Source: a virus
DNA: 34,533 nucleotides
Virus record (IMG/VR): IMGVR_UViG_3300017917_002038
Span: 1-34,533 of that record
Strand: one strand, 5' to 3'
The translations under genes were made by a program, and so were the position numbers. How positions within the stretch are numbered: position 1 is the stretch's first letter; every line of letters begins with the position of its first letter. Below are positions 1,921 to 34,533 of this stretch, piece after piece. The notes beneath the pieces are model-generated. The model was given only the letters and a program-made list of their open reading frames with translations. It searched no databases and was not told where the DNA came from.

Positions 1921-2625
1921 TTATCCTATGCTACTTAAATTAGTTAAAGTCTGAATTCTTACTGTATAATCAATTTGAATTAAACGATTTAAACTTTTTT
2001 GCACTGGATGGAATATCACATGAGTTAACAATTTACCTGTAGTTGTTAATCCCGAACTGCCGTCCGTGCTCCTGGCTTTTAATCCCAATTCGTCGAATGT
2101 GTACGTATCTTCGAGATTAGTGCTGTTATCAAATGCGCTTTGTCCAGCTGGTTCACCATAATCCAACAAACAACTGATTACAATATCTGTGTAAATCCGA
2201 CCAGGTACATGTCTAATTTCCATTTTGTTCCTAGTTGGATCTGCGTTTAAGGCGCTGGTATTGTCGACAATTTTAGCGAATGTTGGGTTATACAGGTTAC
2301 TGTTACTGGTATTTACGTTTGGTGGCAAATAATTAATGATCCCAGTTGGATCAACTGAAGTTCCGCCATTACCAAAATGCATCTCGTAAATGTAATTTTG
2401 CCCTTTATTTGCTAGTGTGTATGCAATGGCTTCACTAATGTTTTCATAATGAATAGCATTACGTTTATCTATATAAACTTCGCCCGATTCAGGGTCAAAT
2501 ATTTTGATATGTCCCTGAACATGAATACCACCAACCTCATTGGGTTTTGCTTCTTTATCCATAGAATTTTCTTCCAAATCTTCCGTATTTTTATCCATAT
2601 TACTATTTAGTTGGTTATTGATCAT
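1921..2625 (-). CDS. Virion structural protein, baseplate/fibre region
   Basis: A 234-aa protein whose ATG overlaps the stop of the giant gene by four bases (ATGA). The first 30 residues are polar and acidic, with further in-frame Met codons at residues 10 and 21, so the true start could be slightly internal. The body contains IKIFDPESGEVYIDKRNAIH, then MHFGNGGTSVD, FDELGLKA and LLTHVIFHPV. This order (label-like beta domain, FGNGG, then FDELGLK and LLTHVIF) resembles structural proteins located between wedge and fibre genes in large T4-like phages. It might take the place of one of the missing T4 gp8, gp9, gp10 or gp11 genes, or act as a fibre adaptor; that is inferred from position only. 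No enzymatic motif is visible. Confidence 0.6.
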   Translation of the reverse strand: MINNQLNSNMDKNTEDLEENSMDKEAKPNEVGGIHVQGHIKIFDPESGEVYIDKRNAIHYENISEAIAYTLANKGQNYIYEMHFGNGGTSVDPTGIINYLPPNVNTSNSNLYNPTFAKIVDNTSALNADPTRNKMEIRHVPGRIYTDIVISCLLDYGEPAGQSAFDNSTNLEDTYTFDELGLKARSTDGSSGLTTTGKLLTHVIFHPVQKSLNRLIQIDYTVRIQTLTNLSSIG

Positions 2626-8600: not shown

Positions 8601-11600
8601 GAAGCCGTAGCTATCCCAGGTTTTGGCACTATTCCTTGCGTAAATGCTAACTCTTCCCGAAGAGCTATCTGGTGCACCTGCATATAGATACAATGCCGAA
8701 GGATCTAGCGCAATTGATCTACCAAAGTGATCATTGCCTGCATATTGACTTTCTCCCAGCTGAATTTTATCTTGGTAACCCCAAGGTTCTGTTTTTGTAT
8801 AAACTCCCCAATTTCCCTGACTATCTAAATTTTCAACCCAAATTTTATCATTGGTTATCCATCCTTCAGTTGGGGTATTTTCAATTACTGCTATAGGTGT
8901 TGGCAATTTGCTACTTTTTAGTTTATAAACTATTCCGTTTCCTAAAACAGCTTCGTTATCTATCAACGATTGCAAGTTGTTATAAATTGTTATTAAAAAT
9001 CTTGTACTGTCTATTATAGAGGCAACACGATAGATTCCATTATATCTTTGATCAAAATTTTTCAATGCTATTAAATCACCAGCTTCGAGTCCGTGTTCGG
9101 TGCTCATGACCAATTCTGCTTGTGAGTCAACATTGAATCTTAGTATAAAAGCTAATCCTGGTACATCAGTAGCTCGATAGACATTCCACTGACTATTAAA
9201 ATCTCGCGCAGTCCATATAGTATACCCAACACCCATATTATTAACAATGTTGGCATATTTGGTATAATCAGTTATGTTATAGATTGTGCTGTTTACATCG
9301 TCTAGGTTAACAAATCCGGCAACCGGGAAAGTCTTTAACTCAGCTGGTTGTGTAGTTGTTTCTGTACGTAAAAAATTAGCACTGAAAGCTCCGCTAATTT
9401 TGTAAACATCCAAGTCGCTGAAATTTGTAATGTCCGTTTGTGCTGTTACAGATTCGTCTGTTAACTGAAATACCGCAGGATTATTATCAAACTCAGATTC
9501 TGGCAAAACGAATTCATAGAACTGATTGATGTCTAATGCCCCGTATTCACCAACCCGAATTGCCCAGTTTTCAAAGAAATTTAATTCTGTATTGAGGTTG
9601 TTAAATTGCGCACCTTTAAGGGCATTAATGGCATTCTCGGTGCCGCCTTGTTTAATTAAACCTTGATAAAATTTACTTTGTGTAACAATGTCAATACCTA
9701 AGTTTGTAAAATATTGTCGTGGTCTGAAACCTATTAACCCGTTACTGAACAGCTGAATTTTTTCATCAAGAGGCTGATCATTGATGTCATAATATTTCAA
9801 CGATTGGCTAGCGTTTGTGGCAAAGTTGTTGATGACACCTGACCTTAATTCATCCTGTCCAATTTGTTTCCATGATATAGTTTGAAACTGGTCTGCGGCA
9901 GATACATTTTCTATTGCAGTGTAGAATCGCAATTTGTTGCTTACAATAGATCCTTTTAAGTAGTCCTTGCCTGGACGCCACTCGTCAATTTGGTCGCTAC
10001 TGTAGATGTAGCCAGGTAATTCTAAGCTGCCGTTCCAAAATCCTGTTTTAGCTCCAACTAATTTTAATCTATACTGTCGGTTTCCTGTTTCAGGAACATA
10101 TATGATATCTTTAAAGACCGTGGTGTTGTCTAGGATTAACAAATGTTCGTACTGTACTAAACTAAATTCTGCCAAACCTACAGTCTGCTCTGCTAGAGAC
10201 TTAAATGTAAACAGATTATTATCTCTAATGACTGTAAAATTATTCTTTTTGATAGGCTGATAATTTATATCAAGTACTTTACTTCCATTAGTAGTATTTG
10301 TAATTTCGTCGACTACTGCTGTTTCATTGAACACTTTCAGTGTGGTTGAAACAGGACTCAGAACAATAATATTTCCGGTTCGCCATCCCTGACTTGTCCA
10401 ATGTAAAAATTCTTTAGCACTTAATACCCAGTCTTTCTTTTCATTGAGTAAATTATCTCTATCCTCAAAAACAAATCCTTGCGCAACTAGATATCGTTGA
10501 TAACTAACTAAGAAATCTACAACTTGTTGTTTCGTATTAAATTCAAATCCGTACGGTATAGTAAATCTTTGATTTTTAAAATCCCGGTATATTGTACCTC
10601 GTTGACTGCTTACATCAATGGTATAAGCATTGTTATTTGGTAAACTAGGAATAATATAAAAATATGGATTAGTAGAATTGTATCCGCTAACTGTATAGCC
10701 GTTGGCGCTTTTTTCAACTATGACCGCAGAATATGTTACTTTGTTTAAAGGAGCTCCTTTATAAAGTTCTATACTGTAATTTTCCTCAGGAATTACAACG
10801 CTGTCGTTAATACTACTAGGGCTAACTTGTTCTGCTAACAGTTCTAAAAATCTTTTATCAGAATATCCTGCCATCTTATATGATAGCTGTACTGAAATTC
10901 TATCTAAGTTATTCTTAAGTACTGCGCCAGCATCAGAGATACCTAAGTTTTTAATATAGTCTCTAATCCAGTTTAAATATCCTGCACTACGTTCTACTTC
11001 GCCATCTGCTAGCGTGTATCCGTTGATTCGAAGAATACTGGGTTGTACATGTTGGTTATTAACCGTGTCAACAAATTGTCCAGTAATTGTACTTCGGTTA
11101 TATCTTTGTACATCGGCTAATAAAGAAAAATATCTAGCAGGTTTACCAATAGCCAATGCAAATTGCACTGCAAATGGATAATCGCTGCTTCTTCTCCAAG
11201 CCAGTTCCGTTGGGCCAATATCCCCAACTGCAAAACTTGTGTTAGCATTGGCACTATCAAAATCAGTTACTAAAAATTCCGCCGGACTGCGTAGATTTCC
11301 ATTATCGTCTACAGGTATTAACGAAGTCAACCCTGGTCTACTATATCTAAGATCAATACCTGCACGATCCCCAGCATGTATGTAGCCAGATTCCAAATCG
11401 CTCCATAAGATCATGTTTCCGCCAGTATAAGGTGCAGGACCGTATCTGTCGTTCCAGTAATCAGGTTTTTCGCTGAATCCTAACATTTCCCAAGGATGTG
11501 TATGTGGTCGATCTGTATCAAAGAAATATCTGAATACACTACGCCAGGTACCTGATAATGATTCGCCATTAACAACATCTCTAAATTTTTTATAATTCCA

Positions 11601-14600
11601 AGTAAATGCGTCTGACGCTTTGAATGTATTGTTAGTAGTAAAATCAACTCTATTGGTTCCTGCCCAACGTAAGAAACTCTGACTTAACAGTTGATTAACC
11701 TCTTGTCTTGTATAATCAAGTATTCTCCACTTACCAGGAATATAATCATTGATATTAAAGTTAACAGGATTATACTCCACTTTTATGTTGTTATAAATTC
11801 TTCTTTCAAGTTCCAATAGAAGATGATCGCGAAAATCACCAAACGCAGGGGTTAGGCTACCATCATGCCCTTGTATTACTTGGATTGGAGTTCTATACGT
11901 ATTATCTGTAAATATTTCCGGAATATATTTAGGATACAAACCCAGCTTTGTTGGGGTTTCAGGTACATAGCTTCCGTCTGTATTGTTATATTCCACAATA
12001 CTGATAATATCGTTGTATAATAAATTAAACGAATCTTGAATTATTACTGCCGGTCTATTCTGATCAAAGTAGTAATCTTGGCCTTTTACCAATAAAGTTG
12101 TAGTCGTAGTTCCGCTCAATGTTCTAGTCAAATAAACTAGCACTGCTTTGTTACTAACAACGCTATCTTGGAATATAGATGTTATTTCGTATGCTCGAAT
12201 ATCAGTATCAAACACTGTATAACTTGGTAACAATACTCTATCGTCGGCGCCGTGAGGTACCATATCGCTATAATGCCACGGGAAACTATCTGTTTTGACA
12301 CCATTTATTACCGACATTATTGTGTCAACACATTCTGCAATATTAGTCCTATCTAGTTCTAAGTTGGCTGCTAATTCTAAAAATTTAATTTTAAACTGAG
12401 AATATTCTCTTGCCGCCAATCTTAAAGAATCCACAAAATTCATTTCGGGGTGATTTAAGAACAAACCAGCGTAGATAACCGGAGCACTGTGTTGTAAAAT
12501 ACTGCCGCCGCGGTTGGTAAAACTAATATCTCTAATGTTGCTATTACCAGGAACATTGCCAATAATATCAAGACTATTATTTTTATATTCTATTAGATGA
12601 TTTCGAATTTGCCCAAGGGTTAATGTCTCGATATCTGTGTTAAGACTATTAATATCAAAATTTAGCGGTACTTGATAAAAGCCTTGCGCTGATGTATTTG
12701 TACTATTAAAAATACTAACAAAAACCACATCACCATTGGTTAATAAATTAGGATCAACTAGCACTGCTAATTTATCAACCACTTTAGTAATACCAAACTG
12801 TCCGTTGGCCACAGGACTATTGTTGACTACTACTTTGATATTTGGTATGTCAACACTCACGTCCGGTAAAATATCAACCGGGAACAAGTTTGTGGTACCG
12901 TCATAGGTAAAATTAAAAATCTGATATTGTTTACTAAAGTTCGAGTTAATTGCCCAGGTGTTTAATCTGGTGCTAGTAGTTCTGCTTAGATTTTTCTGGA
13001 TTAAACCAGTATTCACCGAAATGGTGTTAGTAATACCTGCACTTAAAATGTAGTCAAAGGTATCTAAGTCAAAATTATTATTGAATTGTATGTCGCCTTG
13101 AGTTACTAAATTTTTATAGCTTAACGGGAAACCTAATACAGGATCATTGGCACCGGTGCCCACTTTATATGAAAATATTTTGCTTCCAACAAATGTAGTA
13201 CCTGGATAGACCGAATTATCACCAAAGCTGATACCTTCCTGGTTAATGATATCAAATAACGGCGCTTGATTTACTTTAAGTTTTTGTTGGGCTTCTATCC
13301 AGATTGTGCCATTAAAATACCACTGTTTTTGTCCGTTGTCGCCGGCCTGCACAATAATAGTCTGTCCTTCTTCCACTGTGGCATCGGTTGCCTCTTTGAT
13401 ATACGCTCTGTAAATCAGCGGATCCGGTGCTTCTGTTGTAAGCTCTATACTAAAATCGTATATTTTATTTCTAACGTCAAGGTTCTCATCTTGACTAAAA
13501 ATAACTCGGTCGCCATTGGCTAACGTGACAGATTTTCCTTCTACTGTAATAGTTAACTCGGTGGGTATATCAGGAGCAATGAACGGGCAAATAACACCTT
13601 GCACTTGAGTATAGGCATTAGTAATAACATCATCTAAGATACTAACTGGATTTTTAGCTTCCGTTCCAAAATTAAACAGTTGTAAATTTGGTTTAAATTC
13701 AATTATTGGACGTTGGGCTCGATTGTTTTGATTTAGTACAAGGTCGTTATTGTTGTACTGTGCCGTTGCTTCAATGACCGCAACGTGGAACCATCGGTTA
13801 CTTCTTGACCAGCCGTTCAAATCGGCACTTCCGCGATTAATTGTTAGATAATCCGGTGTTGATAAATTATTACCCAATTCGGGACAAACAAGATCACTTA
13901 CAGGAACTAATGCTATTGATGTACCTACGCCTTCAACATAATATGTGTTGTTAGCGTATGGCTCAGTAGCCGAAGAATCAAATGTTACCTTTAGTCCATT
14001 TGTAAACACTATACCACTGGGACTAACATAGTTTGCCTGACCTATAATTTCAACCGCTGGATCAATTGTAGCTGCTGCAGGGTCAATTAGTTGTATTCCG
14101 CCTACTGCATTATCAGTCTGATCGCTCTGGTAATATAACAAATTAATTGGTGCGGTTATTGCTGGTACCTCATTGTAGATATCCAGTCTGCTATAAAATT
14201 CTTTACCTGAATTTGATGCCCCAGCAATTATTCTTACTTTTTGTTCGTTGTTTACGTTAAACTTACTTGTAAGATATATTCTGGCATTCCCCTCGCTATC
14301 ATCAAATACCGATATACTATAGATATTATTTCTCTCGTTGAATGGGACTAAAACATCTTGATCTAAGTAAATTGTATTATTTTGAATTCTAGCGGTATTG
14401 TGCCAGTAGGTATCATCAATAAATTCGTTATTAACAAAGATTACAGTAGCATCGGTAAGATTTAAAGTTAATCCATCTAATCCCCCAAGGACATCGTTGA
14501 GATCACTAACTAAACAACCTTGCAATGATTGGTAACTTAAACTAGTTGCATAATCTACGTTGTCAACAGTTGGCATACTTGTCCATTGCAATTGAGCAGA

Positions 14601-15326
14601 TTGCAACGGAACTTGAAAAATTGTTTCTCCTACATCTTGACCGTTTCCTGTTACTCCTAATACTGATCTGGTAGACAAGTTAGGTGCTGCAGGATCAGCA
14701 CCTATTGATCCCGGAAACGATTGAATATAGAATTTATTACCTGGCTCGTTGTTAATAAAAGTATACCTACCGCCTCTTGCCAATGTTAATATAGGATTCG
14801 GAGCATCCCCAAATCCACTAAATCTATAGGTTTGAGTAGTGATGTCAAATGTAACTGTAAATGTTTGTTCCAATGGAACAGTGCTAGCACTTACTATCAC
14901 CGAGTCTGGACCGTTTTCTAACCAATAGTATTGTGCAAAATTAACAAATTTGTCTAAATCAATTTGCGGGTCGTAGGAATAATATTCATTATCAAACAGC
15001 CTATTTTGATTGTCACCAAATCCGCCGTAGAAATTAATTTTGTTTACAATATCAGTATATGTTGTTGCGAAGGTTAACGTATCAGTAGTTGGATCTTTAA
15101 TAATAATACTAGGTTCTAGCTGATAGTCTTGTCTATCCTTGGTTGGTTCTGTGATATAGCTGTCTGATGTTTTGTATGACGGCGCCAATTTTCTACCAAT
15201 ATACCCATTGACCTTGATAAGATTTGGTTCACTTACCAATTGATCCATTGTAGCATTAAGAAATTTTCTATTTGTGTCTGTTCTGAAAATTTCAGGTAAA
15301 AACTGAAGTGTCTTAAAAGCTGCCAT
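2622..15326 (-). CDS. Giant 4234-aa baseplate-region protein with integrin-like beta-propeller
   Basis: One uninterrupted 12.7-kb frame, preceded by an AGGATAA ribosome site, directly after gp6 and so in the position of T4 gp7 (1032 aa in T4). The N-terminus (LPEIFRTDTNRKFLNATMDQ, then NGYIGRK and YQLEPSI) looks like a conserved anchoring segment. A conserved aromatic block lies at about residues 1270-1345 (RPHTHPWEMLGFS, YGPAPYTGGN, GIDLRYSRPGL). Residues about 2190-2830 contain seven FG-GAP motifs with Phe at 2201, 2253, 2305, 2430, 2552, 2696 and 2787: an integrin-alpha-like propeller. A glycine-rich GSGYTSVPNIFINGDG module is at about 3505-3555, and a 33-residue duplicated segment lies at 3779 and 4109. 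No protease or hydrolase signature was recognised. Likely a virion protein of the baseplate wedge or periphery; gp7-like function is inferred from gene order, and adhesion from the propeller. Its stop overlaps the next start (ATGA). Confidence 0.75.
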   Translation of the reverse strand: MAAFKTLQFLPEIFRTDTNRKFLNATMDQLVSEPNLIKVNGYIGRKLAPSYKTSDSYITEPTKDRQDYQLEPSIIIKDPTTDTLTFATTYTDIVNKINFYGGFGDNQNRLFDNEYYSYDPQIDLDKFVNFAQYYWLENGPDSVIVSASTVPLEQTFTVTFDITTQTYRFSGFGDAPNPILTLARGGRYTFINNEPGNKFYIQSFPGSIGADPAAPNLSTRSVLGVTGNGQDVGETIFQVPLQSAQLQWTSMPTVDNVDYATSLSYQSLQGCLVSDLNDVLGGLDGLTLNLTDATVIFVNNEFIDDTYWHNTARIQNNTIYLDQDVLVPFNERNNIYSISVFDDSEGNARIYLTSKFNVNNEQKVRIIAGASNSGKEFYSRLDIYNEVPAITAPINLLYYQSDQTDNAVGGIQLIDPAAATIDPAVEIIGQANYVSPSGIVFTNGLKVTFDSSATEPYANNTYYVEGVGTSIALVPVSDLVCPELGNNLSTPDYLTINRGSADLNGWSRSNRWFHVAVIEATAQYNNNDLVLNQNNRAQRPIIEFKPNLQLFNFGTEAKNPVSILDDVITNAYTQVQGVICPFIAPDIPTELTITVEGKSVTLANGDRVIFSQDENLDVRNKIYDFSIELTTEAPDPLIYRAYIKEATDATVEEGQTIIVQAGDNGQKQWYFNGTIWIEAQQKLKVNQAPLFDIINQEGISFGDNSVYPGTTFVGSKIFSYKVGTGANDPVLGFPLSYKNLVTQGDIQFNNNFDLDTFDYILSAGITNTISVNTGLIQKNLSRTTSTRLNTWAINSNFSKQYQIFNFTYDGTTNLFPVDILPDVSVDIPNIKVVVNNSPVANGQFGITKVVDKLAVLVDPNLLTNGDVVFVSIFNSTNTSAQGFYQVPLNFDINSLNTDIETLTLGQIRNHLIEYKNNSLDIIGNVPGNSNIRDISFTNRGGSILQHSAPVIYAGLFLNHPEMNFVDSLRLAAREYSQFKIKFLELAANLELDRTNIAECVDTIMSVINGVKTDSFPWHYSDMVPHGADDRVLLPSYTVFDTDIRAYEITSIFQDSVVSNKAVLVYLTRTLSGTTTTTLLVKGQDYYFDQNRPAVIIQDSFNLLYNDIISIVEYNNTDGSYVPETPTKLGLYPKYIPEIFTDNTYRTPIQVIQGHDGSLTPAFGDFRDHLLLELERRIYNNIKVEYNPVNFNINDYIPGKWRILDYTRQEVNQLLSQSFLRWAGTNRVDFTTNNTFKASDAFTWNYKKFRDVVNGESLSGTWRSVFRYFFDTDRPHTHPWEMLGFSEKPDYWNDRYGPAPYTGGNMILWSDLESGYIHAGDRAGIDLRYSRPGLTSLIPVDDNGNLRSPAEFLVTDFDSANANTSFAVGDIGPTELAWRRSSDYPFAVQFALAIGKPARYFSLLADVQRYNRSTITGQFVDTVNNQHVQPSILRINGYTLADGEVERSAGYLNWIRDYIKNLGISDAGAVLKNNLDRISVQLSYKMAGYSDKRFLELLAEQVSPSSINDSVVIPEENYSIELYKGAPLNKVTYSAVIVEKSANGYTVSGYNSTNPYFYIIPSLPNNNAYTIDVSSQRGTIYRDFKNQRFTIPYGFEFNTKQQVVDFLVSYQRYLVAQGFVFEDRDNLLNEKKDWVLSAKEFLHWTSQGWRTGNIIVLSPVSTTLKVFNETAVVDEITNTTNGSKVLDINYQPIKKNNFTVIRDNNLFTFKSLAEQTVGLAEFSLVQYEHLLILDNTTVFKDIIYVPETGNRQYRLKLVGAKTGFWNGSLELPGYIYSSDQIDEWRPGKDYLKGSIVSNKLRFYTAIENVSAADQFQTISWKQIGQDELRSGVINNFATNASQSLKYYDINDQPLDEKIQLFSNGLIGFRPRQYFTNLGIDIVTQSKFYQGLIKQGGTENAINALKGAQFNNLNTELNFFENWAIRVGEYGALDINQFYEFVLPESEFDNNPAVFQLTDESVTAQTDITNFSDLDVYKISGAFSANFLRTETTTQPAELKTFPVAGFVNLDDVNSTIYNITDYTKYANIVNNMGVGYTIWTARDFNSQWNVYRATDVPGLAFILRFNVDSQAELVMSTEHGLEAGDLIALKNFDQRYNGIYRVASIIDSTRFLITIYNNLQSLIDNEAVLGNGIVYKLKSSKLPTPIAVIENTPTEGWITNDKIWVENLDSQGNWGVYTKTEPWGYQDKIQLGESQYAGNDHFGRSIALDPSALYLYAGAPDSSSGRVSIYARNSAKTWDSYGFLWGNNPVLDSFGKTLATATVGNTSYLVVSAPDSGTKQGVVYVFENQVLIQILSDSSGSAGDEFGTSVALSNDAKYLYIGAPGANKVYCYALNYPREQVTQNIFGSTGIDTFNLSFPVVDASDIIVTAPLRSAEYLPGIDYTVATGPNRIIFTVAPVTGERITVQKRTYFYSLLDTLPLSAESDAGSRFGSAVVCNQDGSVVAVGASATTVNGLENSGAVYVYHRTVTEFVTNGITNTFTLPDNLGNIFYVYYNGKLLLNGSDYYTIGTNIIQFAGFDIPAAGNRLRVESNQLILDQTIYPETTGLTGGSFGEKLTMCSTGCNLYVASPAHKEANYRFGLVTRYVNVGRVYGTVTGTMQNPTVTVGESIVINDRVVTFTGTSLSRVVSDINGSNIPGVTAQAVDGRLRINSNVVVAASKLNIVSGGTGTPLQDLGIEDYGYVQVIRHPESLGETFGSTLKVDQDSGTLAIGSDGADIKIPINIDTTLAVPTTFDSDGTKFIDLITDSGAVYIYNLMPNPYEDVNNPSLFAFTQKLVGPNLNTGFNFGAAIDLKSDYLIAGVSNDFDIVPEGGSLYYYYNQNAKSGWTLTRYKEARVDIGAVNSAFLYNTVSQNILSFFDYLDPAKGKLLGVVDQELDYKEEYDPASYNRTNRTEAISNTDFYWADRHVGKTWWDLSLVSFIDYEQDILQYRIKNWGSLFPGSQVIIYEWVESDFLPSQYVEAVGDGVPKYLDDTAYSSVTVVDPATGIINQKYYYWVSGKTSVDVNRARRTVSVKSLESYITNPKDQGIPYLALLAPNSVAVYNVTDQLVGNDVAIHLDVAGVRNSNLMHSEWQLVQQNAGAESIPNRAISKLKDSIVGFDNNGLIVPDPALKAQDRLGILNFPRQTMVLDRLKALQEYVETLNAILVTYPILLITTPSSLLLEDPLPTTGFDARTESVTDLSYLDTEAFPDGYKILIPSDSTYQGKWSIYKFNSTNKSFELFKLQSYKTTLFWQPIVWYDSTYQNGKDINYVVNIYSDIQALPLKAGDYIKVSDNGQGKWLLYEVQADNTLSLIGAEDGTFKVSTEVYDVTVGAGYDSAVYDSVGFDPQAVQELKNIYDSVYREILVGNLSTEFNRLFLTIINFIFAEQKNPDWIFKTSFIDVYHNLRTLEQFPNYVRDNQNFYNDYIEEVKPYRTQVREYVPSYYRQDLAAGSWTDFDLPSSYDSRYNTFRIPDIANPNDAELFQTELYSEWANNYKFKITDYIIGNVGLNYTLPPNVEITGGGGSGATAITSIWGNGTVKSITVTNPGSGYTSVPNIFINGDGVGATAYPLMKNEWFANDSSLSYNIVRSVTSTLKFDRFAYTSNLVLWQPNTAYTNTVITSGNTLVDSGNIYITSGNIVVYNNQAYLATNANVATESIFDFTRFTRIDSGNVLLNAADRIVAYYEPETGMPGKSLTQLINGLEYPGITVDGPEFRTNAFEITSNVISFNYTGLTINSGNVDAVNFQTLGFDLNQTIRIEALVPFEFQNNGYFTVVEVDRDSMVLTGQPVETTYKLLLDSPITANSGDYITQANTLANAYVLQSVTNSITVDVVYTVPEFAVSSNNISINGITTGSNIAEINTGGNVNVTISSLNLQNVLDSNIYSTYLDTELGTRPQDINISGGAYLDAYVSHAPEELIPGRLYDAMEMRVFGNTIGNTATYGFRVFQPISSNVEYTRISANATTTLSADLHLTDDEILVTDASKLPEPSAALGNPGIVFINGEKVHYYQRYDATKYASAISWVPNTDIALNTLIALDSNVYITTGNVYANSNVYVNSANIQLITLNSLSQIRRGVDGTGVANVILAGNTVSDSSSAQLVPNAQIFSSTIVNGNVKVTSNVTFRLVLSSPITANIGDYITQFANTGNARVLQSVTNGTIVPVNFVTGTFQTASNIGTRINLVSLTSGLTSVNANVISLSTLGSVNSNGNVVLSSVPVLRSNIWEQFGTTLQNSTTIGAQFIKAEPSYIP
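2904..3002 (-). repeat. Second copy of a 33-codon repeat in the giant gene
   Basis: Encodes residues 4109-4141, beginning RLVLSSPITANIGDYITQ and ending VLQSVTN. By my count it matches the copy at 3894-3992 at 23 of 33 residues without gaps, and the DNA is also clearly similar (for example the GGCGATTA and TATTACA segments). It marks an internal duplication of a beta-structured module near the C-terminus. Confidence 0.8.
3894..3992 (-). repeat. First copy of a 33-codon repeat in the giant gene
   Basis: Encodes residues 3779-3811, beginning KLLLDSPITANSGDYITQ and ending VLQSVTN. It pairs with the copy at 2904-3002, about 1 kb further along the gene. The segments that follow both copies are rich in short Ser/Asn/Val strands (ISINGITTGSN, VNANVISLST), so the repeated unit may be longer than the part that aligns easily. 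Confidence 0.8.
6837..8759 (-). other. Region encoding seven FG-GAP propeller blades
   Basis: Within the giant protein, seven blade motifs are readable: DHFGRSIALD, DSFGKTLATA, DEFGTSVALS, SRFGSAVVCN, GSFGEKLTMC, ETFGSTLKVD and FNFGAAIDLK, each followed by a hydrophobic strand and in most cases a GAP-like turn (YAGAPD, VSAPD, IGAPG, VGAS, VASP, IGSDG). The first three are exactly 52 residues apart; later gaps are 125, 122, 144 and 91 residues, leaving room for inserted domains. Seven is the blade number of integrin alpha-subunit propellers. Several blades carry acidic loops (SNDAKY, NQDGSV, DQDSGT) resembling the Ca-binding loops of this family, though none is a perfect DxDxDG. Confidence 0.8.
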
Positions 15327-26761: not shown

Positions 26762-27781
26762 ATGTCTAATCTATTTAAAAAAGCAGCAATCTGCACAGAT
26801 ATACATTTTGGATTAAAGAGCAACAGTCAAACACACAACGACGATTGCTTGAATTTTATCAAATGGTTCACTGCTAAGGCCAAGGAGGAGGGGTGTGAAA
26901 CAGCGTTCTTTTTGGGCGACTGGCATAACAATCGTGCTAGTATCAATATTGTCACTCTTAACTATAGCCTCCGGGCACTGGAGCACCTCAATGCCAATTT
27001 TGAGCGTGTTTACTTTATTCCTGGTAATCATGACTTATATTATCGCGACAAACGCGATGTCCAAAGTGTGGAGTGGGCTAGACATTTGCCGAACGTGGTT
27101 ATATGTAACGATTGGTTACACGACGGTGATGTTGTTGTGGCTCCATGGCTAGTAGGTGACGATTACAAGCGTATTCCCAAACTAAACGCTCAATATATGT
27201 TTGGGCATTTTGAACTGCCGCACTTTTACATGAATGCCATGGTGCAAATGCCTGATCACGGTGAAGTCAAAAGAGAAGATTTTGGCGGTATTGGGCATGT
27301 GTTTTCGGGTCATTTTCATAAGCGTCAGAATCACAAAAACATTACCTACATTGGTAACTGCTTCCCGCACAACTACGCAGACAATCACGACGACGAGCGT
27401 GGTATGATGATTTTAGACTGGGGCAAAGAGCCCGAATATCATGCCTGGCCCGATCAGCCTAGGTATCGTGTGTACCAACTCAGTGATGTATTACAAAACA
27501 CAGATGCATTGCTGCATCGGGGTATGCATGTGCGTGTGAATCTTGATGTAGATATTAGTTACGAAGAAGCAACATTCATTAAAGAAACTTTTGTAAATAC
27601 ATATAATCTCAGAGAAATTACACTTATCCCACAAAAAGTTGTTGGTGAAGATATCAACTATGATATTACTGGCAACATTATGTTTGAAAGTGTAGACACT
27701 ATTGTTACCAATCAACTAACAAATATTCAAAGCGAACAATATAATAAAAATTTACTCCTGGATATCTACAGGAATCTCTAA
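26762..27781 (+). CDS. 47: Recombination nuclease subunit gp47 (Mre11/SbcD-like)
   Basis: A 339-aa protein, the same length as T4 gp47. All metallophosphoesterase motifs are present: DIHFG (D13, H15), GDWHNN (D53, H55), PGNHD (N89, H90, D91), then GHFELPH and SGHFHKRQ in the middle third. These residues bind the two Mn ions of Mre11-family nucleases. With gp46 it forms the exonuclease complex that resects double-strand ends for phage recombination and recombination-dependent replication. The stop and the gp46 start overlap as TAATG, so the two subunits are translationally coupled. Confidence 0.95.
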   Translation: MSNLFKKAAICTDIHFGLKSNSQTHNDDCLNFIKWFTAKAKEEGCETAFFLGDWHNNRASINIVTLNYSLRALEHLNANFERVYFIPGNHDLYYRDKRDVQSVEWARHLPNVVICNDWLHDGDVVVAPWLVGDDYKRIPKLNAQYMFGHFELPHFYMNAMVQMPDHGEVKREDFGGIGHVFSGHFHKRQNHKNITYIGNCFPHNYADNHDDERGMMILDWGKEPEYHAWPDQPRYRVYQLSDVLQNTDALLHRGMHVRVNLDVDISYEEATFIKETFVNTYNLREITLIPQKVVGEDINYDITGNIMFESVDTIVTNQLTNIQSEQYNKNLLLDIYRNL

Positions 27782-29550
27782 TGTTTAAAATTAAAACACT
27801 TGCTGTAAAGAATTTTATGAGCGTGGGTAATGCTACTCAGGCTGTTCAATTTGATCGTAAAGATTTAACTCTTGTACTAGGACAAAATTTGGACCTAGGC
27901 GGAGACGACACAGGAGCCAGGAATGGAACTGGCAAAACAACCATTATTAATGCACTAAGCTATGCTTTATACGGCGCCGCATTAACCAATATCAAGAAAG
28001 ACAATCTTATCAATAAAACAAATGGTAAGAACATGTTGGTTACTATTGAGTTCGAAAAGGATGGTATTGACTATCGGATCGAACGTGGTCGCAAGCCCAA
28101 CACCATGGCATTCTACGTGGGCGGCCAAGAGCAAGAGATCACCGACGAATCGCAAGGTGATAGCAGAGAAACACAAGCAGAGATTGAGCGTATGCTTGGT
28201 ATGAGCCACGACATGTTCAAACATATTGTGGCACTTAATACCTATACCGAACCGTTTCTTTCCTTAAAAGCCAATGAGCAGCGCACTATCATTGAACAGT
28301 TACTCGGCATTACTATGCTAAGTGACAAAGCTGATGCTCTTAAAGAGCAATTAAAAGCAACCAAGGATGCTATTACACAAGAAGAATACAGAATCAAAGC
28401 TGTAACTGATGCAAATGCCAGAATTCAAGAACAAATTGAAGCAACACGGCGTCGTCAAACATTGTGGAATACCAAACGTTTGAACGAAATAGTAGAGTTG
28501 GAGCGAGCATTAGGTGTTGTTGGCGACTTGGATATTGAAACAGAGCTTGCCAATCACAATGCCCTTGACGAATACAACGAAAAAGTCAAAGCAATTAAAG
28601 AAATCACCCGGTGGAAAATTGCTTGCGAATCCGAGCAAGTAAAACTACTTAAAACACTAGATAAACTCAAAAGCGAAATAGAAAAATTAGAGAAACACGA
28701 ATGTTATGCCTGCGGTCAGGCTATACACGATTCAAAATATGAAGAAGTGTTAACAGAAAAGCGTAACACATTAAAAGAAACTTCTTTACAGTATCTTGCC
28801 AATGACGAGCAATTAGGTTCGCATATCGGTGCGTTAGACCTGCTAGGCGAACCTGGACCTGTACCTACGGTGTTTTATGACAAGAAGGAAGATGCTATCA
28901 ATCATAAAAACACTGTAGCAAACTTACAGCAACAACTTGCTGCAAAACAAGCAGAAGCAGATCCTTATGGCGAGCAAATTCGAGAAATGGAAACACAAGC
29001 TCTTGAAGAAATTGACTATGATACAATCAATGAACTTACTAATGTCAAAGAGCATCAAGACTTCTTGCTTAAACTATTAACCAACAAAGATAGTTTTATT
29101 CGTAAAAGAATAATTGATCAAAATCTAAGCTATTTGAATTCTCGTTTGAGTCAGTATTTAGATAGAATTGGACTGCCGCATACTGTCAAGTTCAACAATG
29201 ATTTAACTGTAAGTATTGAAGAACTAGGTCGCGAATTAGACTTTGACAACTTGAGCAGGGGCGAGCGTAACAGATTGATTCTAAGTCTAAGTTGGGCTTT
29301 CCGTGATGTCTGGGAAAGTTTGTATCAACCTATTAACTTATTGTTCATCGACGAAGTCATTGATACTGGTATGGACAGTTCGGGCGTAGAAAACAGTTTG
29401 GCTATTCTTAAGAAGATGAGTAGAGAGGGTAACCGTAGTGTATGGCTAGTCAGTCATAAAGATGAGCTGGCTGGTCGAGTTAACAATGTCCTATCTGTTA
29501 TTAAAGAAAACGGATTTACTACCTACAACACCGATGTTGAAATATCCTAA
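27781..29550 (+). CDS. 46: Recombination nuclease ATPase subunit gp46 (Rad50/SbcC-like)
   Basis: A 589-aa protein, near T4 gp46 (560 aa). The N-terminal ABC half has Walker A GARNGTGKT (residues 45-53), followed by NALSYALYG. Two long charged coiled-coil arms flank the zinc hook CYACGQ (C308, C311). The C-terminal half has the ABC signature DNLSRGERNRLILSLS and Walker B INLLFIDEVIDTGMD, then WLVSHKDEL with the switch His. The complex uses ATP to gate the gp47 nuclease on DNA ends. An AGGAA ribosome site and the TAATG overlap with gp47 support the start. The last 17 bases overlap the next gene. Confidence 0.95.
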   Translation: MFKIKTLAVKNFMSVGNATQAVQFDRKDLTLVLGQNLDLGGDDTGARNGTGKTTIINALSYALYGAALTNIKKDNLINKTNGKNMLVTIEFEKDGIDYRIERGRKPNTMAFYVGGQEQEITDESQGDSRETQAEIERMLGMSHDMFKHIVALNTYTEPFLSLKANEQRTIIEQLLGITMLSDKADALKEQLKATKDAITQEEYRIKAVTDANARIQEQIEATRRRQTLWNTKRLNEIVELERALGVVGDLDIETELANHNALDEYNEKVKAIKEITRWKIACESEQVKLLKTLDKLKSEIEKLEKHECYACGQAIHDSKYEEVLTEKRNTLKETSLQYLANDEQLGSHIGALDLLGEPGPVPTVFYDKKEDAINHKNTVANLQQQLAAKQAEADPYGEQIREMETQALEEIDYDTINELTNVKEHQDFLLKLLTNKDSFIRKRIIDQNLSYLNSRLSQYLDRIGLPHTVKFNNDLTVSIEELGRELDFDNLSRGERNRLILSLSWAFRDVWESLYQPINLLFIDEVIDTGMDSSGVENSLAILKKMSREGNRSVWLVSHKDELAGRVNNVLSVIKENGFTTYNTDVEIS

Positions 29551-30430
29551 AGTACTTCATTTAGAAGTAACAGATGTGTGCCAAGCTGCATGCCCACAAT
29601 GCGGCCGCGAAGTTGATCCTGCATTTGATAAAAAGCAAAAACATCACCTTACTGTTGAACAACTTAAATCTATGTTTAGCGAAGATTTTATTCGCAATCT
29701 AGATAAAATGTTTATGTGCGGTAACTACGGCGATCCTGCCGCAAGCCCGCACACCATTGAAATTTTTAAATATTTTAGAAGTATTAATCCTAATTTAACA
29801 TTGGGGATGAATACCAATGGTGCTATTAATAACAAAGATTGGTGGATTAAATTAGCCAATGTTTTAACTGGTCCCACAGATTTTGTTGTGTTTAGCATTG
29901 ACGGATTAGAAGATACCAATCACATTTATAGAAAAAATGTAGTTTGGGCCAAGCTAATAGAAAATGCTGCGGCATTTATTAATGCCGGGGGTCCTGCACA
30001 GTGGGAAATGCTGATTTACGAACACAACCAGCATCAGGTTAATGCTGCTGAAGAGTTAGCACGTTCAATGGGATTTTTTTGGTTTAGGACCAAAGTTAGC
30101 AAAAGATTTACCACTGCGCCGATTACTTTCTTAAATCCGCCTAAAAATTACAATCTACCAAACGTTAAAAAATTGCAAAAAATTGACTGTCATGCTCTCA
30201 ATGAGCAAAGTGTTTATGTATCGGCAACCGGTCGATTACTTCCATGTTGTTGGTTTGGTGCCGAAGTGTTTTCTCTAGACGATCATGCAGAGCAATTGCT
30301 ATCGGACTGGAATAAAATTCCAACAAGTTGGGATTCAAACCCGCATCGTATTTGCACTAATACATGCGGACTTGACGAAAGCGGCACAAGTTTTTCAAAG
30401 CAATGGCAAATACAAAAACAACTAAAATGA
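29534..30430 (+). CDS. Radical SAM protein with Twitch-type C-terminal cluster (first paralogue)
   Basis: A 298-aa protein. I chose the ATG at 29534 because it begins immediately before the first strand (KVLHLEVTDVCQAACPQC); an in-frame ATG at 29462 would overlap gp46 by 89 bases. CxxxCxxC (C16, C20, C23) binds the 4Fe-4S cluster that cleaves S-adenosylmethionine, and CGNYGDP supplies the GGE-like SAM-binding loop. The C-terminal part has C219-x13-G-x4-C238, exactly the CX9-15GX4C pattern of Twitch/SPASM domains, followed by CTNTC (C274, C278), enough for one auxiliary cluster. SIDGLEDTNHIYRKNV is shared almost word for word with the paralogue at 32440-33555. The substrate is unknown. The ribosome site is weak, and translation is probably coupled to gp46. 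Confidence 0.85.
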   Translation: MLKYPKVLHLEVTDVCQAACPQCGREVDPAFDKKQKHHLTVEQLKSMFSEDFIRNLDKMFMCGNYGDPAASPHTIEIFKYFRSINPNLTLGMNTNGAINNKDWWIKLANVLTGPTDFVVFSIDGLEDTNHIYRKNVVWAKLIENAAAFINAGGPAQWEMLIYEHNQHQVNAAEELARSMGFFWFRTKVSKRFTTAPITFLNPPKNYNLPNVKKLQKIDCHALNEQSVYVSATGRLLPCCWFGAEVFSLDDHAEQLLSDWNKIPTSWDSNPHRICTNTCGLDESGTSFSKQWQIQKQLK

Positions 30431-31923
30431 AAAAAGATATTGTGATTTTAAGTGTTCCACGTATTGCTCCTGTACGTCCAAGTTCTGCTCCTGCTATGCT
30501 CAAAGCCATGTGCAGCCAAGCAGGCAAGGATAGTCAAGTGCTTGATTTAAATCACGATTTTTTTATTAATTTTTCAAAAACGCATTCGTTAGTTGCCAAA
30601 GAAGTAGATGACTACTTTATTCAATTTAACTTGCAACTTAACGAAACAGCAAAGGAAGAATACCATCAATGGATACAATCATGGATTGAAAAAGTACTAA
30701 GCTATACACCGGACATTGTGGCTATCAGTGTGTTTAGTTGGCAAAGTCAACGATTTGTATTAGATTTATTAGAACGTCTAAGACCGGTCTACGATGGGAC
30801 AATTATCGTCGGAGGACAAGGCTTAGTTGATAGCCAAAACATGAGCAGTCACTGGACTTCCCCTACTTATGCGCAAGCCTTATTAGATAAAGGATTAATC
30901 AATTACTATCTTAAAGGGGAATCCGAAGAAACATTTCCACGTTTTTTATCAGGCGAAAGAAATTTGCCAGGTCTCAATAACAGCGAAAATGTTGTATTAG
31001 AAGATCTAAATACAGCTCCGTTAATGGACTTTAGTGATGTTGATGTAAACAATTACCAAAACGGTTACGAAGGCGGTGTACTTCCGGTTGAGTCTTGTAG
31101 GGGTTGTGTGCGCAGTTGTGCTTTTTGTGAAATGAGTTCTGAGCACGGTTATTATAGACGCAAGAGCGGCGACTTGCTGGCGAAAGAAATTATTCACTAT
31201 CACACAACAACTGGTGCCAGACATTTTTATTTTCATGACGATTTGATTAATGGAAATTTAAAAGATTTTAATCAATTTCTCGATTGTATAATTGCCTACT
31301 ATAAAGAAAACAATTTACCTAATAGGTATTTTACTTTTAGCGGCTATTGGATTATCAGATCTGAAAAGCAGTTCAACATGGCTGCATTTGAACGTTTTTA
31401 CCAAGCTGGCGGAGAGACCCTAGTTACCGGAGTAGAAACTGGCAGCGATCGTTTACGTAAAATTATGCGCAAAGGCTTTACAAACAAGGATTTAGAATTT
31501 AATCTAGAGTGCATAAGTCGTTTAAAAATGAAGTTTTATTTCATGCTTATTGCTGGGTTACCCGGAGAACGTTTGGAAGATTTTAACGAAACATTGCATG
31601 CATTAACTAAATGGCAAAAATACGTAGCAACAGGTGCAATTATTGGAATTAATTTAGGAACTACTGCTACTATCGAACCCGGTACAGACATTTACAATAA
31701 CTATCAAAAATATAATCTAGTAGGACTCAAGGGCAAGAGACCGTTTGGTATCAACTGGATGTGTACTGAAACTCCAGAATTAGATTACAAAGAGCGTGTG
31801 CGTAGACGAGTCGCCTTGCAAGAACATGTATTAAACTTAAAGTACCCTCTTTGGAAAGGCGACGACCATTTACGTATTATCATTGACAAGTACAAAGAAA
31901 ATATTGAAGTATGGGAAGAATAA
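30427..31923 (+). CDS. Radical SAM protein with N-terminal cobalamin-binding-like domain
   Basis: A 498-aa protein from the ATG at 30427, which overlaps the previous stop as ATGA; an in-frame ATG at 30403 is the alternative. Residues 1-150 look like a B12-binding Rossmann domain (VRPSSAPAMLKAM, VLDLNHDFF, PDIVAISVFSWQSQR, IIVGGQG), although the classical DxHxxG is absent, as in many class B radical SAM enzymes. The segment YLKGESEETFPRFLSG is typical of the linker. The radical SAM core has CxxxCxxC at C227, C231 and C234, then TGVETGSDRLRKIMRKGFT and LIAGLPGERLEDF. Members of this type methylate or rearrange unactivated carbons or build cofactors; nothing here identifies the substrate. No sign of truncation. 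Confidence 0.85.
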   Translation: MKKDIVILSVPRIAPVRPSSAPAMLKAMCSQAGKDSQVLDLNHDFFINFSKTHSLVAKEVDDYFIQFNLQLNETAKEEYHQWIQSWIEKVLSYTPDIVAISVFSWQSQRFVLDLLERLRPVYDGTIIVGGQGLVDSQNMSSHWTSPTYAQALLDKGLINYYLKGESEETFPRFLSGERNLPGLNNSENVVLEDLNTAPLMDFSDVDVNNYQNGYEGGVLPVESCRGCVRSCAFCEMSSEHGYYRRKSGDLLAKEIIHYHTTTGARHFYFHDDLINGNLKDFNQFLDCIIAYYKENNLPNRYFTFSGYWIIRSEKQFNMAAFERFYQAGGETLVTGVETGSDRLRKIMRKGFTNKDLEFNLECISRLKMKFYFMLIAGLPGERLEDFNETLHALTKWQKYVATGAIIGINLGTTATIEPGTDIYNNYQKYNLVGLKGKRPFGINWMCTETPELDYKERVRRRVALQEHVLNLKYPLWKGDDHLRIIIDKYKENIEVWEE

Positions 31924-32447
31924 TGCAAGTTAGTATAGATTTTGAATATGTTGATAAATTTGGTTGTCCTCAAATTGCAGTCCTAGTGGACGATCAAGTA
32001 TTATATAGTGGCAATGTACAACGTAATGTAACTGTAAATTGCAGTATCAAAGACGGACGTCATCATCTTAAAATAGTACACAGCGAAAAGAAAATTGATG
32101 ATTATGACGACTTGCACGACAGACATGTTGTAATAAAGAAAATAATGTTCGATGGTGTGGACTTAGATCAAACCATGTATTGCCCATTAACCCATCGTGG
32201 ACGATTTTATCCTGAGTATGAAGAAAGTTATATTGTAACTTGCAAAGAACAAGGAGTGGAGTTACCTGAGTATATTAGCCCTAATCATTATTTAGGACAC
32301 AATGGTACTTGGATTTTAGCCTTCGAATCTCCTGCTTACACCTGGATTATACAAGAACAGAAGCCCAGCGGAATCAATTTAGAAGATACTATATTTTCTA
32401 CTGGTAACGAAACCCTTAACGAAGTTAAATCATTTTTTAATGTTTGA
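31923..32447 (+). CDS. Small protein of unknown function within the radical SAM cassette
   Basis: A 174-aa protein from the ATG at 31923, overlapping the previous stop (TAATG), with GGGAAG a few bases upstream. I do not recognise a named family. Alternating hydrophobic strands (VSIDFEYVDKFG, QIAVLVDDQVLYSG, HHLKIVHSEKK, HVVIKKIMFDGVDLDQ) predict an all-beta sandwich, and the middle contains YCPLTHRGRFYPEYEESYIV. There is no signal peptide or membrane segment, and no cysteine motif beyond scattered Cys. From memory, similar small beta proteins occur in large phages, some with carbohydrate-binding-like folds. Its place between two radical SAM genes suggests it is a substrate carrier, partner or recognition module for them; that is inference. 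Confidence 0.6.
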   Translation: MQVSIDFEYVDKFGCPQIAVLVDDQVLYSGNVQRNVTVNCSIKDGRHHLKIVHSEKKIDDYDDLHDRHVVIKKIMFDGVDLDQTMYCPLTHRGRFYPEYEESYIVTCKEQGVELPEYISPNHYLGHNGTWILAFESPAYTWIIQEQKPSGINLEDTIFSTGNETLNEVKSFFNV

Positions 32448-33555
32448 TTACAAAAAAATAGACGAATATCAACTGGAAATTACAACTTATTGTAATGCTG
32501 CCTGTCCTCAATGTCCAAGAAACATACAAGGTTCAGGATTAAATCCTTACATGCCCTTGATTCATTTAGATCGTGAGACTATTGATGCAGCATTCAGTGT
32601 TGATCATTGTAGGCAACTGAGACAAATATTTTTCTGTGGCAGTTACGGTGATCCCATTATGCATCCGGATTTTCTTGATATACTTCAAGACTTTAGGCGC
32701 AAAAACCCAACTCTGTGGTTATACATTCATACCAACGGTGGTGTACACGACGAACGTTATTGGGAAGAAATTGCTACCATAATGAACGGTTACGGCCAAA
32801 TTGATTTTGGCTTTGACGGCTTAGAAGATACTTTACATCTGTACCGTCGTAACGTAAAATACACAGTTGCAATGCGTAATGCTCGAGGTTTCATTCGTGC
32901 TGGTGGTAGAGCGCAATGGAACTATATTGTTTTTAAACATAACGAGCATCAAGTTGAACAAGCAAGACAGCTGAGTAAAGAATACGGTTTCTTCAATTTT
33001 TTGCCAAGAAAGACCGGACGCTTTTATAATCACGAAAGCGAAACTGCTTATTTGACTTGGCCAGTGCTAGATAAAAAAGGTAATGTAGAATATCACTTAG
33101 AGCAGCCAACTAACAACGAATGGTGTAATCCTAGCGTACAAAAAGTTGAAATTATTAAAAAGATGCACGGCAGTTTTCGCAAGTACCTAGAACAGACTCC
33201 AATTAAGTGTGATGCATTATTAGGAAACAAAGTTGTTATTGCAGCTACAGGATTGGTCTTACCGTGTAATTTCTTCGAACATAACTTATACGATGCTAGA
33301 TTTCACAAAGCCGGATATATGCCCGAAGCAAATGCTGCTAGTTTTATCAATGGTAGAAATCAGGTTCAAGAATTAGTAAGAACATTTGCAGATGAATTAA
33401 ACATAAAAACTCACAGATTAGAACATGTTTTTCAATCAGACTTTTGGAGAGCATTAGTTCTTGGATGGTCTGGTACAGGAAAGATTATGGAATGTGCAAT
33501 GACTTGTGGAGAAAAATTTACCAAGGTATGGGATCAAGGAGGATCCATTAGATGA
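32440..33555 (+). CDS. Radical SAM protein with Twitch-type C-terminal cluster (second paralogue)
   Basis: A 371-aa protein overlapping the end of the 174-aa gene by eight bases. LEITTYCNAACPQCPRN gives CxxxCxxC at C18, C22 and C25, and CGSYGDP is the SAM-binding loop. The C-terminal half has C257-x13-G-x4-C276 and CAMTC (C352, C356), the same auxiliary-cluster pattern and spacing as the protein at 29534-30430. The two also share FDGLEDTLHLYRRNV versus SIDGLEDTNHIYRKNV and HNEHQVEQA versus HNQHQVNAA, so they are paralogues. This copy is about 70 residues longer, mainly through extra segments before C257 and between C276 and C352. Both catalytic and auxiliary cysteines are intact, so both copies should be active. 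Substrate unknown. Confidence 0.85.
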   Translation: MFDYKKIDEYQLEITTYCNAACPQCPRNIQGSGLNPYMPLIHLDRETIDAAFSVDHCRQLRQIFFCGSYGDPIMHPDFLDILQDFRRKNPTLWLYIHTNGGVHDERYWEEIATIMNGYGQIDFGFDGLEDTLHLYRRNVKYTVAMRNARGFIRAGGRAQWNYIVFKHNEHQVEQARQLSKEYGFFNFLPRKTGRFYNHESETAYLTWPVLDKKGNVEYHLEQPTNNEWCNPSVQKVEIIKKMHGSFRKYLEQTPIKCDALLGNKVVIAATGLVLPCNFFEHNLYDARFHKAGYMPEANAASFINGRNQVQELVRTFADELNIKTHRLEHVFQSDFWRALVLGWSGTGKIMECAMTCGEKFTKVWDQGGSIR

Positions 33556-34136
33556 AAGTTTTAGTCACAGGCGGTAACAGAGGGCTAGGTAAACACCTAG
33601 TTGAAACATTTAACGGTGTCAGTATTAGTCGCACAAACGGCATTGACATCACAAAAGACTATGCGGCTATTGCTAATATGAGCTTAGAGTACGATGTGTT
33701 TATTAATAACGCTTTTGACGGGCCGCCCCAGGAAGAGTGGGCCAATTTTGGACAAGTACATGTGTTAGAAGCTGTGTATGACGCATGGAGTAAACACAAC
33801 AAGCAAGGATATATTTTTAATATTGGTAGCACAGGCGAAAAGCATGTTGTTGCCCGAGAACCCAGCTTTGAAACATATCGTATAGCAAAAGCAGCGTTGG
33901 CACACGCAAGCAAACAATGCACTGCCTCGTTTAAAGCAAATCTAGTACCATTCAAAACTACACTGGTTACACTGGATCGTTTAGATACGGAACTTAGTAG
34001 AAGTCGCCCGACGTGGACAGGGAATGGTATTAACTTAAACGAAGTATCAAATTTTATAAAATATGCCAAAACTTTAGGTAACAATACCTGTATAGATGAA
34101 ATAACATTTTATTGTAACCTTGACTATAAGGCATAA
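33552..34136 (+). CDS. Short-chain dehydrogenase/reductase (SDR)
   Basis: A 194-aa protein coupled to the previous gene (ATGA overlap) and preceded by a near-consensus AAGGAGGA ribosome site, the strongest in the cassette. It has the NAD(P)-binding TGGNRGLG (residues 6-13), the structural NNA (52-54), a catalytic Ser in NIGSTG (S93) and YRIAK (Y109, K113). It is therefore a complete classical SDR active site in a protein shorter than the usual 250 aa; the C-terminal substrate loop is reduced. It probably oxidises or reduces a hydroxyl or keto group on the same unknown substrate as the radical SAM enzymes, as inferred from the operon. Confidence 0.88.
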   Translation: MKVLVTGGNRGLGKHLVETFNGVSISRTNGIDITKDYAAIANMSLEYDVFINNAFDGPPQEEWANFGQVHVLEAVYDAWSKHNKQGYIFNIGSTGEKHVVAREPSFETYRIAKAALAHASKQCTASFKANLVPFKTTLVTLDRLDTELSRSRPTWTGNGINLNEVSNFIKYAKTLGNNTCIDEITFYCNLDYKA

Positions 34137-34146
34137 TTAATGCTGT

Positions 34147-34533
34147 ATGTCATGGCTATTCGAATCCACTCTTGTGGAATCACTTCCCGAAGATTGCGTG
34201 GGATTTGTGTATTTGATAACAAATACAGTCTCTGGGCGCAAGTACATAGGAAAAAAACTAGCCAAATTTTCAAAAACTACAGTAAAAACGGTAAAACTTA
34301 AAAACGGCACTAAGAAAAAAAAGAAGATCAGAAGCAAAATAGACTCAGATTGGCAAGATTATTATGGCTCAAACGACGAACTCAAAAAAGACATACAAAC
34401 ACTAGGCCCAGAAAAATTTACTAGAGAAATACTTTTTTACTGCAAATCAAAAGCTGAATGTTCATATATTGAAGCAAGAGAACAATTCCGACACCAAGTC
34501 TTAGAATCAGATGATTATTATAACGGACATATA
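34147..34533 (+). CDS. GIY-YIG nuclease, SegE-like, cut by window end
   Basis: An open frame from the ATG at 34147 to the right edge (129 codons, no stop). The N-terminal motif GFVYLITNTVSGRKYIGKKL is the GIY-YIG core in its VYL...YIG form. It is followed by a lysine-rich loop, DWQDYYGSNDELKKDI, FTREILFYCKSKAECSYIEA and YYNGHI at the edge, an order typical of the phage SegE-type family, where the final YYNG lies close to the C-terminus; little is probably missing. These are freestanding homing-type endonucleases, or DNA-cleaving proteins of unknown role, common as isolated genes in T4-like genomes. An ATG at 34140 is out of frame with the domain and was not used. Confidence 0.82.
   Translation, partial: MSWLFESTLVESLPEDCVGFVYLITNTVSGRKYIGKKLAKFSKTTVKTVKLKNGTKKKKKIRSKIDSDWQDYYGSNDELKKDIQTLGPEKFTREILFYCKSKAECSYIEAREQFRHQVLESDDYYNGHI

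Follow-up and report, generated by a model that had tools for sequence, protein, structure and literature searches.

Exchangeable radical SAM gene blocks beside gp46 of an uncultivated T4-like giant phage and their possible role in sugar tailoring

Interchangeable modules of radical S-adenosylmethionine (SAM) genes are known from T4-like phages. In the Campylobacter phages CP220 and CPt10 the module comprises five radical SAM genes and a putative amidinotransferase gene (Timms et al. 2010, PMC2853527). Pelagimyophages carry radical SAM cassettes in hypervariable islands, with lipopolysaccharide-related genes that were read as O-chain modification (PMC7029224, 2020), and eight radical SAM genes, located among structural genes, were reported for the cultured Aeromonas phage 332-Vera (PMC12390700). 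Vibrio phage K566 is another cultured phage rich in radical SAM genes. A radical SAM diol dehydratase and an NADPH reductase, AprD4 and AprD3, catalyze the C3 deoxygenation in apramycin (PMC5461906). Here, we analyzed a cassette of five genes, designated A to E, in an IMG/VR virus fragment of 34.5 kb (IMGVR_UViG_3300017917_002038, positions 1 to 34,533; the whole stretch is termed the window). The window encodes T4-type gp55, gp47 and gp46, its gp47 is nearest to PA5oct-type Pseudomonas jumbo phages (52 %), and the phage is an uncultivated T4-like giant (jumbo) phage. The cassette consists of three blocks, an independent gene A, a linked pair B-C and the pair D-E, located in an exchange hot spot between gp46 and a gene for a segE-like GIY-YIG endonuclease. 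An earlier note on this DNA had proposed an undescribed pathway of five genes. Radical SAM modules in T4-like phages had been reported in 2010 and 2020, so that only this architecture is new; a literature search for the combination of radical SAM enzyme, carbohydrate-binding module (CBM), short-chain dehydrogenase/reductase (SDR) and phage found no report.

The five genes are encoded on the plus strand. A (29,534 to 30,430; 298 amino acids; Pfam Radical_SAM 3.6e-8) and D (32,440 to 33,555; 371 amino acids; 2.9e-10) are Twitch-type radical SAM enzymes, B (30,403 to 31,923; 506 amino acids from the longest start; 4.4e-10) is a radical SAM enzyme of the B12-fold type. C (31,911 to 32,447) is a beta-sandwich protein of 178 amino acids with a CBM60-like fold in the predicted structure. 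E (33,552 to 34,136; 194 amino acids) is a short classical SDR with Rossmann and S-Y-K motifs, with a Pfam adh_short match of 9.7e-5 at 22.4 bits, under the cut-off of 26.6. PF04055 scored above its cut-off in A, B and D, which places all three in the radical SAM superfamily. A and D are paralogs, with 41 % identity over residues 6-196 and a profile-profile probability of 100, and neither reached the curated cut-off of 170 bits for the N_Twi_rSAM family NF033640 (39.1 and 23.3 bits). With the internal starts at 30,427 for B (4-base overlap with A) and 31,923 for C (1-base overlap with B), the overlaps along gp46/A/B/C/D/E are 17, 4, 1, 8 and 4 bases, in agreement with the earlier reading of five intact overlapping genes.

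Purifying selection acts on all five genes, and their intactness is far beyond chance. Across all phage loci the CX3CX2C cluster motif was retained in 256 of 257 D, 217 of 217 B and 35 of 35 A copies, and the E motifs in 258 of 258. Among aligned relatives of D, the cysteines C18, C22 and C25 (CX3CX2C) and C257, C276, C352 and C356 (Twitch) were invariant, as were the C-terminal cysteines C219, C238/C239, C274 and C278 of A; both enzymes are thus predicted Twitch proteins with a single auxiliary [4Fe-4S] cluster. The residues TG.N.GLG, NNA, S93, Y109 and K113 of E were invariant in 16 of 16 aligned relatives, and these motifs, the Ser-Tyr-Lys set and the Rossmann fold identify E as an SDR. Median dN/dS values of close pairs were 0.171 for A (4 pairs), 0.066 for B (72), 0.087 for C (65), 0.086 for D (138) and 0.083 for E (125). 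The earlier suggestion of a set with intact catalytic cysteines and SDR Tyr/Lys, maintained by selection, is borne out by these values (0.066-0.17), and motif loss in homologs, which would have spoken against it, was confined to a single D copy. Radical enzymes together with an oxidoreductase are a maintained set, to which no named pathway fits.

Searches of IMG/VR yielded 111 matches for D, 308 for E and 109 each for B and C, of which 80 were kept for each protein. The B and C counts stem from alignment-based scans; single-protein scans gave one match for C and, with patterns that were too specific, none for B. Among 50,697 phage records, B, C and E had no homolog at E 1e-5 (0.1 for C), and the matches of D and A were confined to CP220/F379 of Campylobacter and to Mosig of Pelagibacter (22-27 %), the only cultured phages with homologs of these two proteins. 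One hundred twenty non-redundant loci were fetched through D, E, B or C and hence form a biased sample. The commonest slot arrangement in it was gp46-B-C-D-E-GIY (26 loci). The order A-B-C-D-E was present in six loci and, with D and E fused, in one more, thus in at least seven distinct contigs; two further loci had all five genes in a different order.

An unbiased sample of 68 complete slots was obtained by centering on gp46, the left border of the slot, which in the window codes for an SbcC-like recombination nuclease subunit (27,781 to 29,550, plus strand; phrog_77 1.7e-102). Twenty-two slots were empty; A occupied 30 slots, whereas C, B, D and E were present in 11, 6, 5 and 3 slots, respectively. 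B was tied to C (Fisher p 2.4e-4), A was independent of B (Fisher p 1.0), and D always had an SDR neighbor, in three cases E and in two another SDR. This occupancy and linkage define the slot as an exchange hot spot for the blocks A, B-C and D-E. The right border in the 68 complete slots, and in nearly all relatives, is the segE-like GIY-YIG gene, present in the window at 34,147 to 34,533 (plus strand; PF19835 3.9e-34) and cut there by the contig end. The endonuclease may drive the exchange of cassettes. Not one of the 68 slots held the full five-gene set, which rules out a dedicated five-gene pathway. The check proposed earlier, a look for the same five genes together elsewhere, thus yields virus contigs with identical order and no such unbiased slot; the tendency to stay together is lacking for A and evident for B-C and D-E. 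Accessory genes of the slot include those for a GDP-Man-dehydratase-like epimerase, DegT, a sulfotransferase and a 2OG oxygenase; the majority had no Pfam match. One contig carries B-C-D-E away from the gp46 slot (L065:5936-9688); it also has a PTPS (QueD-like) gene and genes resembling those for curli, as described in pelagimyophages.

As a hot spot of homing endonucleases, a slot of this kind may also gather unrelated auxiliary genes by chance, each with a separate role in host metabolism and without a joint pathway. The hypervariability of the slot, the independence of A from B and the many other gene types that come and go would agree with such a collection, and the similar CP220 module was called interchangeable and likely non-essential (Timms et al. 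2010, PMC2853527). We consider this explanation doubtful, however, in view of the total linkage and twofold fusion of D and E, the strong linkage of B and C, the recurrence of C next to several enzyme classes and the repetition of the A-B-C-D-E order.

The linkage is strictest for D and E. From 258 phage E genes, 228 were located directly after D, 29 were fused to D, one was at a contig start and none was elsewhere. The fused state required two Fitch changes on the D tree (support 0.985 and 1.0), thus the fusion arose independently at least two times. D and E are inseparable, with D as obligate partner of E, and probably form one functional unit. E occurring only with D, together with the two fusions, corresponds to the AprD4/AprD3 pattern of a radical SAM enzyme and an obligate reductase partner. 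The phage D proteins form one clade, sister to the D of a Bacteriovoracales metagenome-assembled genome (MAG). On a chromosome-like Bacteriovoracales contig (L083:9947-12220), D and E are separated by an open reading frame of 106 amino acids. Other SDRs adjoin radical SAM genes in further loci, SDR-A in L330 and L342 and SDR-D' in L331 and L368. In the predicted structure of D-E (pLDDT 86.5), the D part matched SuiB, SkfB, BlsE, anSME and MoaA (Z 17.5-19) and the E part FabG-like SDRs (Z 19). These modelled folds leave the substrate unfixed. Sequence-profile searches of the PDB gave nothing useful for D or for C.

The resemblance of D to the peptide maturases SuiB (Z 19) and SkfB (18.3) suggests another function: A and D may act on a peptide or protein in the manner of enzymes for ribosomally synthesized and post-translationally modified peptides (RiPPs), with E and B adding changes. 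The top NCBIfam match of B is a RiPP C-methyltransferase as well, although at 69.8 bits against a cut-off of 281.85. Against a maturase, the radical SAM core of D starts at about residue 9 and that of A is likewise N-terminal, so that no N-terminal peptide-recognition domain precedes the core, and Pfam detected no recognition domain. The overlapping genes leave no space for a precursor gene, and no small precursor-like gene was conserved with the blocks in a listing that starts at open reading frames of 60-70 amino acids. Peptide or protein maturation is therefore very unlikely.

The second linked block unites B with a protein of suggestive fold. B precedes C in 78 of 95 non-redundant C copies. 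The GG.G loop of B is kept in the alignment of its relatives, and B matches many cobalamin radical SAM families weakly, every one below the cut-off. Its profile also finds the AprD4 structure 6fd2 weakly (E 0.0028). C had no Pfam match, no convincing family match and no PHROGs family. In its predicted model (pLDDT 87), C shares the carbohydrate-binding CBM60 fold: the CBM60 structures 2xfd and 2xhh were matched with Z 10.6 and 10.5, the following structure with 5.8. C had been described as an unknown beta-rich protein; beta-rich and without a sequence family it is, and the predicted fold now relates it to CBM60. An inspection by eye yielded as a lead that the aspartate of the CBM60 'DRNL' motif is seemingly retained in C, with an invariant lysine at a nearby position.

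C is associated with several enzyme classes. Relatives of C adjoin N_Twi-type radical SAM genes in three loci (L344, L367, L401), and the protein in L344 scores 230 bits to NF033640. In other slots, D-E is replaced by two paralogous proteins of about 340-370 amino acids with a C copy between them (L281:8050-10581, L268:7172-9703, L389:4529-7100 and L395). These pairs match the Aminotran_1_2 structure 7n79 (E 3.5e-4) and are likely pyridoxal phosphate (PLP) enzymes of the aminotransferase type. C-type proteins could then serve as a common sugar-presenting subunit for swapped B12-type radical SAM enzymes, Twitch radical SAM enzymes and PLP pairs, a combinatorial platform for glycan tailoring in one slot. 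We put this forward as a speculative and rather doubtful extension.

The genomic surroundings of relatives also contain functions of sugar metabolism. In the phylum to which the Bacteriovoracales MAG belongs, 21 of 291 genomes contained a relative of D (E 1e-40), and further bacterial relatives occurred in cyanobacteria, Nitrospirales, Myxococcales and others. The bacterial D relatives are often located within glycosyltransferase loci: among 96 neighbors were 34 radical SAM, 7 GT2 and 2 sulfotransferase genes. Nine related jumbo-phage contigs had 4-16 radical SAM genes apiece, and seven of the nine coded for NDP-sugar enzymes of PF01370 in one to four copies. A second cluster of N_Twi-type radical SAM genes (L414, L415, L418-L420) is situated near tail-fiber-like genes and adjoined by genes for a UDPG/GDP-Man dehydrogenase, an epimerase and a carbamoyltransferase; DegT aminotransferases are encoded elsewhere in these contigs. 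A glycosyltransferase-like family with a 'YDEP...DGDN' pattern and no Pfam match is common to the phage radical SAM clusters and to Bacteriovoracaceae radical SAM loci (L415:1823-2749, L085:7051-8007, L086, L092).

Radical SAM, SDR and PLP-like enzymes might instead synthesize a complex nucleobase, before or after replication, that shields the phage DNA from host nucleases. Radical SAM and PLP enzymes take part in thymidine hypermodification, the overlap with gp46/gp47 makes a co-transcription with replication and recombination genes probable, and QueD- and QueE-like genes were read from the sequence elsewhere in related phages. Genes of the thymidylate synthase family were present in two of the nine related contigs, a search outcome that did not decide the matter. 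A base modification of the entire replicon, on the other hand, is hard to reconcile with a cassette content that varies among close relatives and with empty slots in 22 of 68 cases; also the carbohydrate-binding fold predicted for C and the glycosyltransferases next to bacterial D relatives argue against it. We regard DNA hypermodification as unlikely. The QueD-/QueE-like genes, located in L417, L423 and L424, suggest a separate 7-deazaguanine pathway.

We propose, with a probability of roughly 45 %, that the exchangeable blocks tailor a sugar early in infection, most likely a host-surface or phage-linked glycan or a nucleotide-sugar precursor. A sugar or glycan is favored over a peptide or nucleobase because of the fold of C, the glycosyltransferases near bacterial D relatives, and the NDP-sugar epimerases, aminotransferases and carbamoyltransferase in related phages. 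The early timing would follow from the overlap with gp46. In this scheme, D would generate the 5'-deoxyadenosyl radical for hydrogen abstraction at a carbon of the sugar and, with the help of its extra iron-sulfur cluster, oxidize or dehydrate the sugar to a keto sugar. E would then use NAD(P)H to reduce the ketone, so that the hydroxyl group ends up inverted or is lost. The CBM60-like C may hold or recognize the sugar for a radical alteration by B, e.g., a C-methylation, and A may act as an optional third radical dehydrogenase. The altered glycan could block rival phages or evade the host.

Several observations weigh against sugar tailoring. The substrate is inferred, not identified, as are the exact reactions, the early expression and the benefit. 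A CBM60-like fold in a model does not prove sugar binding, and a sequence-level link of C to CBM60 is unsupported: no Pfam match was obtained, and a comparison to the Pfam CBM60 members (PF16841) gave an hhalign probability of 1.3 %, with a template of just three sequences. The best fold matches of D include peptide maturases besides BlsE and MoaA. Cobalamin binding by B is only predicted, the Pfam B12-binding match (PF02310) being sub-threshold (0.0034; 17.6 bits against 32.1); AprD4 possesses a B12-like fold without necessary cobalamin binding. No glycan genes adjoin the bacterial D-E locus. In the contigs of related phages, GT2 gave either no match or one below the threshold, so the attachment of the sugar would fall to host enzymes or unrecognized glycosyltransferases. 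The earlier view that nothing decides between the possible targets has nevertheless shifted: the fold of C, the glycosyltransferase neighbors and the NDP-sugar genes point to a sugar or glycan.

The function of radical SAM modules in T4-like phages has been open since 2010. With D-E, two enzymes are at hand as a defined unit for expression and assays, and the fold of C names the substrate class to test. If sugar tailoring holds true, many aquatic jumbo phages carry radical enzymes that are sensitive to oxygen and alter sugars in the course of an infection; the competition between phage and host and among phages would then have a layer that has hardly been explored. A scan for promoters and terminators was no better than shuffles. 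Elsewhere in the window, positions 2,622 to 15,326 on the minus strand form a single open reading frame of 4234 amino acids, which likely encodes a very large protein of the virion structure or the tail.

The known systems share single traits with the locus. CP220 and CPt10 (Firehammervirus) are likewise T4-like phages with an interchangeable multi-radical-SAM cluster, and the CP220 module holds two adjacent genes for nucleotide-diphospho-sugar transferases; however, D and A are just ~22-23 % identical to their counterparts, and the phage records searched gave no homolog of B, C or E at the limits stated above. An amidinotransferase-like protein without Pfam match was read by eye in two of our loci (L045:2748-3956, L192:541-1590). 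The pelagimyophages and Pelagibacter phage Mosig are aquatic T4-like phages with radical SAM cassettes in hypervariable islands, and an ArnB-like aminotransferase and a carbamoyltransferase are annotated nearby in Mosig. Their cassette resides in the host recognition cluster, the D homolog has 26.7 % identity over half the length, and no D-E or B-C pair was seen. CBM60 modules bind sugars in a calcium-dependent manner and resemble C over 103 residues (2xfd, 2xhh; Z 10.6), but the identity is 12-13 % and C stands alone rather than being part of a glycoside hydrolase. In a Foldseek comparison, the D domain was matched best by BlsE of blasticidin S formation (7vob, cytosylglucuronate-acting; Z 17.7), which is 14 % identical and tied with the peptide maturases. 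BlsE acts on a sugar-nucleoside, and we know of no SDR partner for it. For AprD4/AprD3, the D profile found no match to AprD4 in the PDB (6fd2) and D is of the Twitch type; the pair, a radical SAM enzyme and its dedicated reductase acting on a sugar, may serve as the conceptual model for D-E.

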